A stretch of DNA of 40,675 bases. Origin: Bacillota bacterium (GTDB lineage Bacteria > Bacillota_I > Bacilli_A > RF39 > UBA660). Position 1 is the stretch's first letter, and every line of letters begins with the position of its first letter. This document shows, one piece after another, positions 14,010-21,766 of the stretch. The notes under the pieces are model-generated. The model saw nothing but the letters and a program-made list of their open reading frames with translations, did no database searches and had not been told where the DNA came from. The stretch is from the NCBI GenBank assembly GCA_015059375.1, contig SVAN01000009.1:1-40675 (forward strand), given 5' to 3'. The translations under genes and the position numbers were made by a program.

Positions 14010-15215
14010 ATGAAAAGATTTTTTAAATATTATAGGTCTTCTTTCGCCTTATTATTAAGTATGGTGATTGGACTTATAATTGGGCTTATTTTCAAAGAAA
14101 AAGCAACTGCTCTATCTCCATTAGGTACTCTATTTATTAATCTACTAAGCACAATAATTGTTCCATTGATTTTCACTACAATTACTCTTTCTATAGCTAA
14201 AATTAAGCCTCAAATTGTTGCAAAATTACTCAAAAATATTGTAATTGTCTTTGTAATAATGTCGTTGTTGTCTGTGCTTGTTGGAATTATCTCTACTTAT
14301 GCTTATCGTTTTGTTTCCACGCAAAATACCATTGAGACTCACCATAATGTAACAACCGAAAATACTGATTTAAACTTTTTAGAAAGAACAGTTAATATGA
14401 TTAGTGTAAATGATTTTAATTCGCTACTCACAAAAGAAAATATGATTGCTCTTATTGTTTTCTCAATAATCATTGGCATCGCGGCATATAAAAGCAAGGA
14501 AAAAGCAAAACCATTTATTAGTTTTCTAGAAAGTTGTGAAGAAATATTAATGCGCGTTATCACAATTATTATGTATTATGCGCCGATTGGTATATGTGCT
14601 TTCTTCGCTAGCATGGTTGGCACTTTAGGTGGGCAAATTGCTGCAGATTACTTAAAAGTTTTTATTTACTATGCTGTAATATCCATTCTTTTCGCAGCAA
14701 TTGTTTATTCCGTTATAGCTAAGATATCTGGAAAAAGTGTCAAAGAATTTTGGAAAGAATCAATTCCTATTATTCTTTGCTCATTAAGTACTTGTTCTTC
14801 CGCTTCATGTTTACCAATAAATATAAATACCGCAGAAAAACTTGGCGTATCAGATCAAGTAAGTAAAACAACAATTTCTTTAGGAACAAGCTTTCACAAA
14901 GACGGATCTGTTATTGACAGTGTGTTTAAAATAATGTTTTTAGTGTATTTATTTAATAGTAACATTAATATTATTCAAGTAATCATTGTTGCCTTAGCCG
15001 CTACACTTCTAATTACTGCTGTTCCAGTTGGCGGTGGTACAATTAGTGAAATGTGTATTATTACTTTGTTAGGATTTCCAGTAGCAGCTCTTCCCATCTT
15101 AACAATTATAGCTACAATTACAGATGCTCCTGCTACAATGCTTAATGCTCTCGGAGATACATCCGCATCATTGCTAGTCGATAAGCTTATGAAAAAAGAT
15201 ACTATTTCGTCATAG
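14010..15215 (+). CDS. Dicarboxylate/amino acid:cation symporter (DAACS family)
   Basis: 401 aa multi-TM; SLSTCSSASCLPININ, SLGTSFHKDGS, TDAPATMLNALGDTSASLLVDK motifs. Confidence 0.93.
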   Translation: MKRFFKYYRSSFALLLSMVIGLIIGLIFKEKATALSPLGTLFINLLSTIIVPLIFTTITLSIAKIKPQIVAKLLKNIVIVFVIMSLLSVLVGIISTYAYRFVSTQNTIETHHNVTTENTDLNFLERTVNMISVNDFNSLLTKENMIALIVFSIIIGIAAYKSKEKAKPFISFLESCEEILMRVITIIMYYAPIGICAFFASMVGTLGGQIAADYLKVFIYYAVISILFAAIVYSVIAKISGKSVKEFWKESIPIILCSLSTCSSASCLPININTAEKLGVSDQVSKTTISLGTSFHKDGSVIDSVFKIMFLVYLFNSNINIIQVIIVALAATLLITAVPVGGGTISEMCIITLLGFPVAALPILTIIATITDAPATMLNALGDTSASLLVDKLMKKDTISS

Positions 15216-15225
15216 TATCTTTTAT
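15189..15225. terminator. Bidirectional terminator within overlapping 3' CDS ends
   Basis: AAAAAAGATACTATTTCGTCATAGTATCTTTTATATT hairpin with A/T runs. Confidence 0.75.
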
Positions 15226-15447
15226 ATTCTGGGTTAATTTTGCCATTAATTCAGTATTTTTAACTAATTCCACATATGAACCATCCTGTTCTTCGACTAA
15301 TTTCAACAAGACTAACTTTTTAGAATTAATATTCTCTTGTTCATCAACACCCGCAGCCAAGAAATAACGAAATCCTTCAAATATCGTTTCTTCTAGCAAT
15401 ATAAAACGTTCCTCGTTTTCTAGTACAATAATATCATTAACTTTCAT
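15202..15447 (-). CDS. Small conserved-type protein, weakly DUF1292-like
   Basis: MKVNDIIVLENEERFILLEETIFEGFRYFLAAG...; ATG at 15447 behind AAAGGAAC; overlaps the end of the signal peptidase gene. Confidence 0.6.
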   Translation of the reverse strand: MKVNDIIVLENEERFILLEETIFEGFRYFLAAGVDEQENINSKKLVLLKLVEEQDGSYVELVKNTELMAKLTQNIKDTMTK

Positions 15448-16105
15448 CGGTATTGTTCCTTTCATTTTCAATTATACCATTATTTTTATCTTCTTCTAAT
15501 AATCGACGATTTGCTTCTTCAGCATTCTTTTTAACTTTGCTAATTCTAATAAGTTTAGAAACATCTTTAATTATTACGTAAACCGCCGGTAAAATTACTA
15601 CCAATAACCATCCAAATTTACTTGCTACAAAGAATTGAATTCGTCCTAATTGTGGTATTTTAATTACTGCTTTACCTATTACATTTCTATATAAAGCCGG
15701 AGCGCTGTCTTTTGATAAATTATTATCCCCTTGCGTTGTAAATTGATATTCGCCATTAACAATTTGAATATCCTTAACCCGGTGAGTAATTGTCATTCCA
15801 TAAGTAAATGAACTCGAAGATTTAAAGGTAATAATATCTCCTACTTTTATATCCTCGGGTTTATCCACCTTCGTATTTATGATAACATCATACACCTTAA
15901 TTTTCGGCGTCATACTAGGACTTACAATTGTATATATCGAGTAAGGTGGAGCAAAACTCTCTCCTTTTCTAGCATATATCTGAAGGGAAATATAATAATA
16001 TACTAAACAGGCTGCACAAGCAATTAGAATTACAAAAATAGCCCAAGTTATAATACTTGATAAATAATTTATTATCGATTTTATTTTCACACTATTTCTT
16101 TTCAT
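15437..16105 (-). CDS. SipW/ER-type signal peptidase I
   Basis: TIVSPSMTPKIKVYDVIINTK Ser motif, THRVKDI His motif, TQGDNN, two TM segments; Ser/His form like SipW. Confidence 0.88.
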   Translation of the reverse strand: MKRNSVKIKSIINYLSSIITWAIFVILIACAACLVYYYISLQIYARKGESFAPPYSIYTIVSPSMTPKIKVYDVIINTKVDKPEDIKVGDIITFKSSSSFTYGMTITHRVKDIQIVNGEYQFTTQGDNNLSKDSAPALYRNVIGKAVIKIPQLGRIQFFVASKFGWLLVVILPAVYVIIKDVSKLIRISKVKKNAEEANRRLLEEDKNNGIIENERNNTDES

Positions 16106-16125: not shown

Positions 16126-18174
16126 TTATTTAACTAATTCTATTTTAAGTTGACCTTTAAACATTTTACCACTATCAACATTTTGATTTAGACCAGTTTC
16201 CCTAAAATAAATATCTAAAACAAATTTTGCTTCGCTTTTAGCTCTTAGCAATACATTATCTTTTAATATAACGGTTTGACGTGGAGCTTTATAACCTTCT
16301 ATAAATGCTGTATTGCTTCTTGCCAATGAATAATCCATATTGTTTTCATCACTAAACTCATTTGTTACATTTTCCCAAACAACCCGATACGCTATTGCAT
16401 ATGAAGAATTATTTTTTACTTCAATAACGTACCTATCATTCCATCCAGGTTCAATGTCAGAAGATTTTATTTCTAAAGGATTCATTATATAAAAATCATA
16501 ATTTCCCGCTGACGTAATATCCAATATAGCATCTGAATTATACTCCGAATCTAAGTAATAATTATTGTCCTTATCAATATTTGTTGTTCCATTATCACAA
16601 TTGAAATCACATATACCATCGTTGTCAATATCGACGTTTTTATCTGGCCATCCGTCCCCATCAGTATCACAGTTTCTTACACAAAAAGGGGATTTGTCTA
16701 CTAGATTATTACCAGCACAATTAAAATTACAAACACCTAGTCCATAAGCATCTAAATTTTCTTCTGGCTTTCCATCTTTGTTGCTATCTAAATTAAAATC
16801 TGCTAATTGATCTTGATTGTAATCTACATCAATATCAGCAATATTATTACCATCTACATCAATATTATTATCAGGATGTAAATCGTAATTCAAATCACAA
16901 TTAACATCACAAGTACCATTATAGTCAACATCAACGTTAATGTTTTTAGATAAAATTAAATGGCCTTCTTGGTATTCAATTAAATGATCTGAACGGCCGT
17001 CATGATTTGTATCACAATTTTTTATACATACATTATCATCGTCAACTAGATTTAAATCAGCTTCACCATCATTATTTAAATCAATATTATATTCAGGGAA
17101 TCCATCGTTATCAATATCAATATTCAATTTTAAATCATCAATTTCTTTGTTTATCGGGTTTATAATTGTTTCTCCATTATCTTGAGAAATATTTACATCT
17201 GGATTTCCATCACCATCTACATCAATGTTAATGTAAACATTATTATTTGTGGTAACATTTGTTTTACAGTGTTTTTCCGAAGGATATAATGTGCACTTCC
17301 AATCAACATTTTTCCCTTTGTTAAATGGCAAAGAGTCCTCGCCTTTTTTTATTAACTCATTTAATAAAATTTCATTGTTATTTAAATCAATATTATAATC
17401 CGGCCATCCATCACCATCAATATCACAATTTTTTGTACAATTTGGGTTATCTTTTACATTAGTAATTGGATTTGTAATCTGCCCATTTTCATTTACATTA
17501 AAGACTTTTTTTCGATTGCCCTTATAATCAATATTGTATTTAGGAATATTACTATTTTTTTCTGTTACATTTATATCAGCTTTACCATCGCCGTCTACGT
17601 CAATATTTGTATCCGGCAAAGAATCATAATTAATATCACAATTAAGTTCGCAAAGTTTCCCCTTTTTATAATTTCTTATAATATTAATATCAGCTACGCC
17701 GTCGCCGTTTAAATCTAGATTATAATCCGGCCATCCATCATTATCAGAATCACAATTCAATATACAATATTTACCATTTTCATCTAATTGATTCGTTTTA
17801 TTGAAAATATGAGTTCGATCACCTAAAACATCAATATTAAACACAGCAATCCGATTATCTTGATAGTCAATATTATACATTGGCTTACATTTATTACCAT
17901 CTGTTATGTTTAAGTTAGGAACTAGACTACCATCGACTTTTAAATTAACATATTCGCAACGATTTTTACCCAAAAATTCATATTCTCGATAATGATATAT
18001 TCTTGAAAACGAAACAATAAAAATTAATACAACAAAAACAAGTATGCTTGCTATAAGCATATACCATCTTCGAGCTTTAACAATTAAAGCGTGTTCTTCT
18101 TCTAGTATTTTTGCTTGATTGTCAAAGTCTGGTTCTTGATTAAGGATTTCTTTTTCATTATCAATTTCGTTCAA
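16126..18174 (-). CDS. Membrane-anchored Asp/Cys-rich Ca-binding-type repeat protein with C-terminal TasA/CalY-like domain
   Basis: N-terminal TM; many 12-residue DxDxDGxxDxNx loops and CxxNCD motifs; C-terminus IEPGWNDRYVIEVKNNSSYAIAYRVVWENVTNEF...FRETGLNQNVDSGKMFKGQLKIELVK resembles camelysin/TasA. Confidence 0.75.
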   Translation of the reverse strand: MNEIDNEKEILNQEPDFDNQAKILEEEHALIVKARRWYMLIASILVFVVLIFIVSFSRIYHYREYEFLGKNRCEYVNLKVDGSLVPNLNITDGNKCKPMYNIDYQDNRIAVFNIDVLGDRTHIFNKTNQLDENGKYCILNCDSDNDGWPDYNLDLNGDGVADINIIRNYKKGKLCELNCDINYDSLPDTNIDVDGDGKADINVTEKNSNIPKYNIDYKGNRKKVFNVNENGQITNPITNVKDNPNCTKNCDIDGDGWPDYNIDLNNNEILLNELIKKGEDSLPFNKGKNVDWKCTLYPSEKHCKTNVTTNNNVYINIDVDGDGNPDVNISQDNGETIINPINKEIDDLKLNIDIDNDGFPEYNIDLNNDGEADLNLVDDDNVCIKNCDTNHDGRSDHLIEYQEGHLILSKNINVDVDYNGTCDVNCDLNYDLHPDNNIDVDGNNIADIDVDYNQDQLADFNLDSNKDGKPEENLDAYGLGVCNFNCAGNNLVDKSPFCVRNCDTDGDGWPDKNVDIDNDGICDFNCDNGTTNIDKDNNYYLDSEYNSDAILDITSAGNYDFYIMNPLEIKSSDIEPGWNDRYVIEVKNNSSYAIAYRVVWENVTNEFSDENNMDYSLARSNTAFIEGYKAPRQTVILKDNVLLRAKSEAKFVLDIYFRETGLNQNVDSGKMFKGQLKIELVK

Positions 18175-18229: not shown

Positions 18230-18919
18230 TCATTTGTTGTAAACTTCGACAGTATACACGCTATTACCACGATATTTGCCATTTTCATCAAAATCATCTT
18301 CCGTATCGTATGTAAAAACACTGACAATAATTTTACCATCTATTTCATGAAATTTGCTTCCTGCAGTTAACTTCATCGAAGTTAGGATTGTATTTTCTGT
18401 CATATCATCCATTGTTAAGTGCGAGTACCATACTCCGATAGGTACATTAGCACTATCGTACAAATATATTTCTAAATAATCGTAAAAATCAGATACATCA
18501 GACGGGCAAAGAATTGTTCGATCAATTTGTGTCCCATCTAATAAATCAAACGATATATGCCATCCAGTTTTATATTTTTGGTAATCTGTATATTTACTAG
18601 CATTACTTTTCCAAATATTTTGAAAATAATCTGGTTTTATTACATCCTCTTCACTAAAAACGCTTCCGAAAACCACAATATCTTTTTTTAATTGCCATAA
18701 TTTGGAATATTCCGAACCAACTTTATCAAGTCCACCAGCATCATTGTCAATATACAATGAAAGTATGACGGGGTTATCATCATGATATTTAGGAAAATCA
18801 TCAGCATGCGCATCCGAACTAGTTTCGCCAAAAATCAAATCATTTACATCGCGTTCTTCATAATTAATTTCACATCCGCACGTCATTAAAAATATTAATA
18901 AAAATAAAAGTTTTTTCAT
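18230..18919 (-). CDS. Predicted lipoprotein, unknown function
   Basis: MKKLLFLLIFLMTCGCEINYEERDVND lipobox-type signal. Confidence 0.7.
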   Translation of the reverse strand: MKKLLFLLIFLMTCGCEINYEERDVNDLIFGETSSDAHADDFPKYHDDNPVILSLYIDNDAGGLDKVGSEYSKLWQLKKDIVVFGSVFSEEDVIKPDYFQNIWKSNASKYTDYQKYKTGWHISFDLLDGTQIDRTILCPSDVSDFYDYLEIYLYDSANVPIGVWYSHLTMDDMTENTILTSMKLTAGSKFHEIDGKIIVSVFTYDTEDDFDENGKYRGNSVYTVEVYNK

Positions 18920-18944: not shown

Positions 18945-18973
18945 CAAAAAAAGAAAGAAATTAATCTTTCCTA
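18944..18973 (-). terminator. Terminator after M23 hydrolase gene
   Basis: Minus strand GGAAAGATTAATTTCTTTCTTTTTTTG. Confidence 0.7.
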
Positions 18974-20188
18974 AGTTCTAGAATAATACCATTGTCCATA
19001 ACTTGGCATCATAGGTGGAACAATACTGTTTGCAACATATTTGGAATAACTGGAGTATCCTTCAGTACCACCACCTAAATAAAAGCCTTTAGCAACCCCG
19101 AAATGCAAGTGCCACCCCGTTGAACAAGTGTCCCAACCGCCATTTTTCTTTAAAGTTGCGCCGCCGCCACCCATAGTACCAATAACTGTTTGATAGTTAA
19201 CTTTATCTCCGACTTTTACATATACATCTTGCATATGAGCATAAGTAAGGGTATAGGCAACACCTTTAACTCTTACATGAATATAAACTTGATTTCCTCC
19301 ACAAGAGGCTTTTTTAATGACTGCCGCAACAGTACCGCCAGCAGCGGCATATAACGGACTTCCTCCAGATATCCCTGCCACATCAACAGCATTGTGGTAA
19401 TCAGAATACGGCTTACCATTTAAGTAAAAACTACGATAACCAAATCCTGAAGATATATACCCTTTCGTTGTAGGTTTATACCACCGCGCATTATCGCCAA
19501 CCGTAATACAGGTAGCTAGTTTATCTGCGTCTTTACATCCAGCATCTTCATAAAATTTAATCAATTCTTCTTGAGCTTTAATTTGTGATGATATGTCAAG
19601 CGTTACCTCTACTAATTGTGATAAATCATGTTTTAAACTCGATAAACTATTTTCATAAGTAACAATCTTATTTTCTAAATCCACTTGCTTTTTAGCAAGC
19701 TCAATTTGTAACTCCTGATTATCTGTAATAAGTTGTTCCATTTGAGTTAAACGCGACTGATTATATTCTAAAATTTGAGCAATGGCTTCAATTCTCATCA
19801 TCATGTCCGTCATAGAAGCCGAACCATTAATGTAATTTAAGAAATCATTTTCACCTTGCATTATCTCATAAAAAACCAATATTTTTTCTGATTCTACTTT
19901 AGCAATCTCGATTTCCTCAGTAGTATCCTCAATTTTCTTTTTAGCTAGAGCAATTTCGCTTTCAGCTTGCTCTACAGCTGCATGAGCACCTGCAATTTTT
20001 GCATTTTCAGCGTTTATTTCAGCTTGCGTCTTGTTTTTATTGGCATCTGCAGTAGCTTTTTCTTTCTTTAATTGTGCTAACTCATTTTTTAAATCTTTAA
20101 GCGTTTCTGCAGCAGCATTAACTTTCCAAGGGGTCAAACCCATTACTAAGGTTAAAACCAATAATACTTTTACTACCGTTTTCATCAT
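18971..20188 (-). CDS. Coiled-coil M23 peptidase, FtsEX-partner-type (PcsB/EnvC-like)
   Basis: Signal peptide, long coiled coil, M23 residues HNAVD and HLHFG; overlaps ftsX by 4 nt. Confidence 0.88.
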   Translation of the reverse strand: MMKTVVKVLLVLTLVMGLTPWKVNAAAETLKDLKNELAQLKKEKATADANKNKTQAEINAENAKIAGAHAAVEQAESEIALAKKKIEDTTEEIEIAKVESEKILVFYEIMQGENDFLNYINGSASMTDMMMRIEAIAQILEYNQSRLTQMEQLITDNQELQIELAKKQVDLENKIVTYENSLSSLKHDLSQLVEVTLDISSQIKAQEELIKFYEDAGCKDADKLATCITVGDNARWYKPTTKGYISSGFGYRSFYLNGKPYSDYHNAVDVAGISGGSPLYAAAGGTVAAVIKKASCGGNQVYIHVRVKGVAYTLTYAHMQDVYVKVGDKVNYQTVIGTMGGGGATLKKNGGWDTCSTGWHLHFGVAKGFYLGGGTEGYSSYSKYVANSIVPPMMPSYGQWYYSRT

Positions 20189-21078
20189 ATTTTTAAATAC
20201 TTCCTTACTGATTTAACACTACCATACATTCCTACCAAAGCCCCAATGATTACTAAAACTGCTGATACCATGAAAACAAAATTATATGGGTCTACTAGTT
20301 TCAACATTTCACTAAAGAAATATCCATGCATCGTATTATACAAAATTACATAACCATATATCGTTATACATATAGGGATAATCGCCCCAATAACACCTAA
20401 TACTAACCCTTCAAAAACAAAAGGCATCTTAATTGTATTGTTACTAGCTCCTACTAATCGCATTATTTCTATCTCATTTTTACGAGAATAAATTGTTAAT
20501 TTTATTGTATTACTTATTAAAAATACAGTAACCAAAATTAAGGCAATCACAATACCAATTGTAACCTTTTCAATGATATCAAACGCAGATACCACCTCTT
20601 CGACCATTCCTTCGCCATACTTAATGGTTTCAACATTGGGAAGCGATTTCACCTCTTCTGCTATATCACTAATTTCTGTAACGTCTTCCACATAAATAAC
20701 ATAACTATCCAAAAGTGGATTTACGTCTAAATAGTTTAAAATGGTTTCAAAGGCATCATTATACTCAGCCATATTCTTTTTTTGTTCTTCTTTGCTAATA
20801 AATTTAATTTCCCGAACACCTTTGACATTCTCGATTTCTTTCTTTAAATTGTCTGCATCCTCAGCAGTAGCCTTTTTGTTTAAATATATTACAATGTTCA
20901 TTTCCTCTTCAATATTTTTTGTAGCATTATTAATATTGGCAGCAATGATAATGGAAACCGATACAATTATTAGCGTAATTGTTACACAAAGGATACTGGC
21001 CATCGCCAAAGAGAAATTACGACTTATACTTTTAAAAGCATCTCTAATGCTTCTAAAAAAAATTCTAATTGCTTTCAT
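20185..21078 (-). CDS. ftsX: Cell division protein FtsX
   Basis: MKAIRIFFRSIRDAFKSISRNFSLAMASILCVTITLIIVS..., 4-TM FtsX topology; start moved to MKAIRIF at 21078. Confidence 0.95.
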   Translation of the reverse strand: MKAIRIFFRSIRDAFKSISRNFSLAMASILCVTITLIIVSVSIIIAANINNATKNIEEEMNIVIYLNKKATAEDADNLKKEIENVKGVREIKFISKEEQKKNMAEYNDAFETILNYLDVNPLLDSYVIYVEDVTEISDIAEEVKSLPNVETIKYGEGMVEEVVSAFDIIEKVTIGIVIALILVTVFLISNTIKLTIYSRKNEIEIMRLVGASNNTIKMPFVFEGLVLGVIGAIIPICITIYGYVILYNTMHGYFFSEMLKLVDPYNFVFMVSAVLVIIGALVGMYGSVKSVRKYLKI

Positions 21079-21766
21079 CTGCTTTATAACTTCCTTTCGC
21101 GTAATCCCCAACTAACATCCCATTATTAATAACTAAGACTCTCTTCTTCATCCGATTAACAATATCTTTATCATGTGTCGCCATAATAACAGTAGTACCT
21201 AGATCTTTATTAATCGATGAAATAACCTCAATTATCTCCTTGCTTGTCTGTGGGTCGAGATTTCCAGTTGGTTCATCACAAACTAATAATTTAGGTTCGT
21301 TGACAATCGCTCTTGCAATGCACACCCGTTGCTGCTCGCCACCAGAAAGTTCCTTTGGAAAACTTCTAACTTTATCTTTTAATCCTACTCGCTCTAACGC
21401 CTTTAATACTTTAGGTCGAATATCTTTATTTTTCATTCCTACACATTCTAGCGCAAAGGCTACATTTTCATACGCTGTTAATTGTGGAAGCAATTTATAA
21501 TCTTGAAAGACAATTCCAACTTTACGACGGAATTTATATACTTTTCGATTTCTTAATTTTCCAACATTGACTCCACCAACGGAAACGACTCCTTTAGTAG
21601 GTTTTTCCTCACGATACAACATTTTGGTAAATGTTGATTTACCACTAGCTGTCAACCCAATCACAAAAACAAATTCACCTTTATCAATGGACACACTAAT
21701 ATCTGCACAGGCCGTAATACCATTACTATAAGTTTTTGTTACATCTTTAAACTCTATAAACTTCAT
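21065..21766 (-). CDS. ftsE: Cell division ATP-binding protein FtsE
   Basis: MKFIEFKDVTKTYSNG, Walker A GLTASGKST, LSGGEQQRVCIARAIV, DEPTGNLDP; precedes ftsX. Confidence 0.95.
   Translation of the reverse strand: MKFIEFKDVTKTYSNGITACADISVSIDKGEFVFVIGLTASGKSTFTKMLYREEKPTKGVVSVGGVNVGKLRNRKVYKFRRKVGIVFQDYKLLPQLTAYENVAFALECVGMKNKDIRPKVLKALERVGLKDKVRSFPKELSGGEQQRVCIARAIVNEPKLLVCDEPTGNLDPQTSKEIIEVISSINKDLGTTVIMATHDKDIVNRMKKRVLVINNGMLVGDYAKGSYKADESN

Follow-up and report, generated by a model that had tools for sequence, protein, structure and literature searches.

An Asp-Rich Loop Stalk with a TasA-Like Tip beside a SipW-Type Peptidase in Uncultured Gut Bacilli

Introduction

TasA-type fibers are the best-studied matrix scaffold of Gram-positive bacteria; at issue are their fixation to the cell and the replacement of TapA outside Bacillus. 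Both questions are raised by one gene in the window (the whole 40,675-nt stretch of DNA analyzed here). What would a protein do that spans the membrane near one end, carries an Asp-rich loop array in its middle, and ends in a TasA-like domain, with a SipW-type signal peptidase as its neighbor? We address this question by dissecting the protein, comparing its locus across relatives, and weighing its possible roles against known matrix systems.

Organization of the Stalk Gene and Its Locus

The stalk gene and its parts are as follows.

16126–18174, minus strand: stalk gene, 682 aa, TTG start; the coordinates include the stop codon
18067–18174, minus strand: charged cytoplasmic tail, residues 1–36, containing the conserved motif D[YF]xxQ...EE
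18004–18063, minus strand: single transmembrane (TM) segment, about residues 38–57, putative equivalent of a SipW-type signal peptide, with a motif decayed in the window genus
16540–17889, minus strand: Asp/Asn/Cys-rich region, residues 96–545 (~450 residues), with 13 strict and 16 loose 12-residue Ca-type loops
16129–16542, minus strand: TasA/camelysin-like C-terminal β-sandwich domain, residues ~545–682 (138 residues)

The TTG start has AGGGAG in front of it, and every homolog in the genus begins with TTG or GTG. An earlier sequence-only reading had given the protein a cytoplasmic N terminus and one TM helix, as is borne out by the charged 36-residue tail and the single hydrophobic segment (residues 39–57) that follows. 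Its description as giant does not survive comparison: 682 aa is not giant within a family whose members reach 1401 aa.

The surrounding genes are listed below.

15202–15471, minus strand: small protein with a weak DUF1292 match, overlapping the end of the SipW gene and kept in several members of the genus
15437–16105, minus strand: SipW/ER-type signal peptidase (Ser-His), the next gene, 20 bases downstream of the stalk
18230–18919, minus strand: putative lipoprotein without a recognized family, immediately upstream of the stalk gene in every genus member seen
18971–20188, minus strand: PcsB/EnvC-like M23 protein (context)
20185–21111, minus strand: FtsX (context)
21065–21766, minus strand: FtsE-like ATPase (context)

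The window genus thus keeps on one strand the order FtsE, FtsX, PcsB/EnvC-like M23 protein, lipoprotein, and then stalk. The peptidase scores 97.2 bits against TIGR02228 (cutoff 51.85) and 85.7 bits against the Bacillus SipW model, below the cutoff of 190; the Ser and His of the SipW type are invariant in it. Promoter-like sites in the region did not rise above chance.

No fiber-subunit gene lies beside the stalk in the window genus. The idea that the genus lacks such genes altogether was dropped on finding small SipW-signal genes elsewhere in the window genome, several in a row at C29. Within the genus, tandem runs of genes at L155:2850-7698 (G006:C11) and L153:1301-5240 (G000:C29) each encode several small paralogs bearing a SipW-type signal (GATFAYF), probably fiber subunits. 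A second DNA match, at G000:C10, is no paralog of the stalk gene and sits among ordinary housekeeping genes.

A SipW-Like Membrane Segment

Comparison across genera suggests that the TM segment may correspond to a SipW-type signal peptide, so that cleavage is possible. Canonical SipW-like sites with an aromatic P2′ residue stand at the TM end in several other genera, such as GASFS↓YY (g20) and GTTFS↓YF (g11), and G351 has STYS↓YY at the same place. In TasA, position P2′ of the SipW site is occupied by F29 (PMC10269814); in the donor strand, this residue sits in a conserved interface between protomers (PMC10151520). The window genus has a degenerate motif (VSFSRIYHY), and the residue after the window TM segment, at the place equivalent to the donor-strand aromatic P2′, is not aromatic. 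NCBIfam models, including TIGR04088 for SipW-type signal peptides, gave no match for the window stalk protein. The cytoplasmic D[YF]xxQ...EE motif is kept in most genera. Because a decayed cleavage motif combined with a conserved cytoplasmic motif favors retention, we lean toward a retained membrane anchor in the window genus, with cleavage possible in others.

Homology of the Tip to TasA/Camelysin

The C terminus had been read as resembling TasA/camelysin, and profile comparison upholds this. A profile of 12 C-terminal domains (A1, the stalk tips) was aligned by hhalign with one built from 12 small proteins of the family, most of which carry a SipW signal (A5), giving 99.3% with E 1.4e-20 over 119 columns; in comparable alignments, a control profile from another protein of the locus reached 3.1% and 0.3%. 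Nine of the 12 A5 rows match PF12389 (TasA/camelysin) at E 0.01. On these profile alignments we take the tip to be homologous to the TasA/camelysin superfamily, by way of its local PF12389-positive members.

Direct routes gave less. A Pfam search that included PF12389 returned no match for the window protein or for the 12 homologous C-terminal domains, and the profile of these domains found chance-level matches only in the PDB. Among the PDB matches of the A5 profile were the archaeal bundling pilin AbpX, at E 0.005, and TasA (5of1/8aur), the latter weak (E 0.4–0.5) and with its alignment centered around the TasA motif LKPGD. The class, phylum, and plasmids sampled—groups seemingly without Bacillus—held no strong TasA/CalY homologs for direct comparison.

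An AlphaFold model of the domain is a β-sandwich of nine or so strands (pLDDT 83). In Foldseek, TasA (5of2) gave the best TM-score among the matches listed (TMq 0.53), with E 4e-3 at rank 27, and was not separated from other jelly-rolls. In the fold check suggested by the sequence-only reading, the modeled sandwich thus appears compatible with TasA and is not decisive, TasA not being singled out. A Foldseek comparison with viral models returned generic jelly-rolls only and was uninformative on the tip.

The Asp-Rich Loop Array

The array had been described as about 500 residues of loops in a 12-residue period. The abundance of Asp-rich loops stands: the window protein has 16 loose motifs, whereas 1000 shuffled sequences average 1.6 and never exceed 7. 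An unbroken period does not, as the array is diverged and interrupted. Its 13 strict loops include only three pairs at exact 12-residue spacing (starts at residues 142/154, 353/365, and 503/515); the remaining loops are single and ~20–70 residues apart. Relatives do have unbroken arrays: in a set of 30 proteins, an exact 12-residue step from one loop to the next occurs 418 times.

Together, these proteins contain 716 strict loops with the consensus D-T-[ND]-G-D-G-K-[PC]-D-[LI]-N-[IC]. Ligand positions are nearly fixed (D1 100%, D5 97%, N11 92%), where the D1 and D5 values are partly set by the search pattern and N11 is absent from it. Within the window genus, 13, 8, 10, and 11 of the 13 loops have an invariant residue at positions 1, 5, 9, and 11, respectively, whereas just 1–2 do so at positions 2, 4, 7, and 10; position 3 switches between Asp and Asn. 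Invariance extends to 17 of the 19 Cys residues. This pattern of loops and Cys is the one expected from selection on Ca-ligand geometry and disulfides, and we infer that the Asp/Asn loops bind Ca2+.

The proposed likeness to thrombospondin type 3 and dockerin loops holds in part. The D-x-[DN]-x-D-G-x-x-D pattern is common to both and conserved here, as are the Cys-rich composition and tandem arrangement; the stalk loops differ in their fixed 12-residue unit, the Asn at position 11, and the Ile or Cys at position 12. The Pfam TSP3, dockerin, and EF-hand families found no match at E 1 in the window protein or in four relatives with regular arrays. Loop geometry was judged from sequence, the full-length AlphaFold model being too poor to judge the repeats. 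Two other sets of matches were set aside: those of PVL lectin within the loops are weak and look like matches to the ligand motif, and those of MSCRAMM Sdr/ClfA to the arrays of relatives lie far below the cutoff and reflect Asp-rich composition.

At the DNA level, the 72-loop member in genus g121 is a 36-base tandem repeat of ~43 copies; no tandem repeat of this type is left in the window array. The loop unit also occurs in other proteins. In a 571-aa DcuC/CitMHS-like transporter (L031:6341-8056, minus strand; G028:C8), it is inserted between the two membrane parts, which suggests that the repeat can move from one protein to another, unrelated one. A surface protein bearing InlB-type (Listeria-Bacteroides) repeats also contains it (L036:1-1632, minus strand; G016:C30).

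Distribution and Locus Variation

Of the nine other genomes in the genus, eight carry a stalk homolog, at 49–62% identity; six of these align over their full length as one piece, and two, which lack a central segment, align in two pieces. Across the family, the A1-type domain was found in 137 of 389 sampled genomes, and a class-wide sample of 298 (E 1e-6) placed it in the window family only (14 genomes). The relatives that bear a name are metagenome-assembled genomes of uncultured Bacilli/Erysipelotrichaceae, several of them, to judge by title, from goat, sheep, or rabbit gut or rumen. A search for the same architecture, as the sequence-only reading had advised, showed that it recurs in about ten further genera of this one family, in proteins of 318–1401 aa with 5–86 loops.

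The locus points to a matrix setting; the sequence-only reading, which had called a matrix or adhesin stalk plausible, did not mention the adjacent SipW gene. SipW adjoins the stalk or lies one gene away in 8 of the 11 genera with visible neighbors; by a rough estimate from 1–9 SipW-type matches per genome, chance would give ~1–2%. No SipW adjoins the stalk in g20, g61, and g99. Small SipW-signal or TasA-like genes lie within three genes of the stalk in at least seven genera (g20, g93, g49, g158, g12, g61, and g99), and some of the neighboring small proteins exceed the TIGR04088 cutoff.

The stalk itself varies. Loop number at this locus differs even among members of g121, being 5, 46, or 72, and in g11 (L033:5380-6690; a G188 homolog in L136) a cadherin-like β-sandwich region (PF12733) replaces the loop array while tip, subunit gene (L033:6769-7437), and SipW stay. 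The constant parts are thus the signal/TM segment, the tip, and usually SipW, and the stalk is exchangeable and variable. One further homolog (L032:2260-4293; G020) contains 55 Cys residues and repeats of the NCDDGSFGG type; the end of its TM segment, LLISC, is lipobox-like.

In seven or more relatives, SipW is followed by a fourth gene, which encodes a protein of ~150–196 aa with one TM segment and no Pfam family (L131:8584-9120, L048:9424-9960, L132:5591-6175, L123:5288-5842, and others). The idea that it is a further TasA-like protein found no support: Eight copies align with one another and not with the TasA-like profiles.

Relation to Known Systems

Searches of the whole stalk protein against Pfam, NCBIfam, PADLOC, and PDB sequences found no family—Pfam and NCBIfam gave no match of any kind, TapA included—in line with the earlier statement that no standard family has this architecture. 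TasA and CalY (camelysin, PF12389), the Bacillus matrix-fiber subunits, belong by profiles to the same superfamily as the tip and share its SipW linkage. Each of them consists of one domain with a free N-terminal donor strand, whereas the TasA-like domain described here forms the tip of a 682-aa protein, behind a loop array. BsaA of Clostridium perfringens (TIGR04090) and the archaeal bundling pilins AbpX are TasA-like SipW-dependent matrix proteins, weakly matched by the companion small proteins; unlike the stalk protein, they are single-domain subunits without a stalk.

Two accessory proteins offer functional parallels. TapA, the TasA assembly and anchoring protein of Bacillus subtilis, is likewise a second, larger SipW-linked gene product and combines an Ig-like domain with long extensions (PMC10151520); it differs in that its Ig domain is central, it donates its N terminus, and it has no Ca-loop array. 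CapP of Bacillus cereus is a SipW-processed, chaperone-like accessory of TasA/CalY fibers that is bound to the cell wall through a strain-variable repeat domain (PMC13082335), so repeat-bearing accessories of TasA systems exist. CapP consists of DUF4047 and QKKV/AEE repeats and, unlike the stalk protein, has neither a TasA-like tip nor Asp loops.

A literature search, with subscription papers mostly outside its reach, found no paper joining TasA and thrombospondin type 3; within the same scope, TasA with "calcium-binding repeat" led only to unrelated plant papers. The TasA/SipW system is thus already known, and a Ca-loop stalk with a TasA-like tip is, as far as we have found, undescribed.

Proposed Role and Alternatives

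We give about an even chance to the reading that the protein is the stalk or anchor component of a TasA-type (SipW-dependent) matrix-fiber system. Its role is best read, by comparison with known accessories, as TapA/CapP-like: It would hold or cap TasA-type fibers. Export would proceed through the SipW-type signal/TM segment, and in the window genus the decayed cleavage motif makes it probable that the protein stays in the membrane. Outside the cell, to judge from ligand spacing and conservation, the loops would take up Ca2+ and so stiffen the Cys-rich linker of ~450 residues into a rod. In TasA fibers, each subunit donates its N-terminal strand to the next (PMC9674648), and TapA has been proposed as the giver of the first strand (PMC10151520). 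The tip is preceded by the loop array, without a free N-terminal donor strand. Joined to the rod and lacking a strand of its own, the sandwich could receive the donor strand of a TasA-like subunit without being able to pass one on, and so hold or cap the fiber at the cell surface; homology underlies this step, and the action is our proposal. The neighboring SipW would process the fiber subunits, which are encoded beside the stalk in other genera and elsewhere in the window genome, and the array length, variable between species, would set the distance from the cell. A more specific version seems somewhat unlikely: A TasA-fold acceptor with no donor strand would sit on a Ca2+-gated stalk whose length differs between species, be held in the membrane by a decayed SipW signal that has a conserved cytoplasmic motif, and catch the growing fiber end with a polarity opposite to that of TapA.

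Rather than anchoring fibers, the protein could be a secreted minor subunit, cleaved by SipW and built whole into the matrix fibers as an initiator or decorator, with the Ca-loop array as a bristle or cross-linker. The canonical SipW-like sites of several genera and the SipW gene next door speak for this, as does the precedent of TapA and CapP, both SipW-processed accessories (PMC10151520, PMC13082335). Yet the site is decayed in the window genus, a cleaved signal has no need of a conserved cytoplasmic motif, and the N terminus after the site is, by eye, unlike the donor strand of neighboring subunits; we consider this reading unlikely, though one to be taken seriously. The conservation of the tip while the stalk varies, its linkage to SipW and TasA-like genes, and the lack of a Pfam match between it and any known ligand-binding family likewise argue against a plain adhesin, in which the tip would bind host mucus or other cells, independently of fibers, on a Ca2+-dependent stalk. 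Adhesins often have Ca-loop arrays and exchangeable stalks, and the organisms come from gut and rumen; even so, this role seems improbable.

The setting of the window genus suggests another partner. The stalk gene shares its strand with ftsEX and the genes for the PcsB-like hydrolase and the lipoprotein, at gaps of ~50 bases and in an order conserved across the genus, and its product might be a division-linked envelope protein that acts with theirs in septal wall remodeling. In other genera, however, the stalk lies beside SipW or TasA-like genes, not ftsEX, and its position here may be simple genomic neighborhood; we regard a division role as very improbable.

Significance

As a proposed fiber-holding stalk in a TasA-type system, the protein would bear on how such fibers are fixed to cells. 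The recurrent locus of these uncultured gut Bacilli—SipW, TasA-like subunits, and a Ca-loop stalk of variable length with a TasA-like end domain—is a concrete candidate for fiber fixation, and it suggests Ca2+ control of the surface matrix in bacteria with genomes of ~1 Mb.
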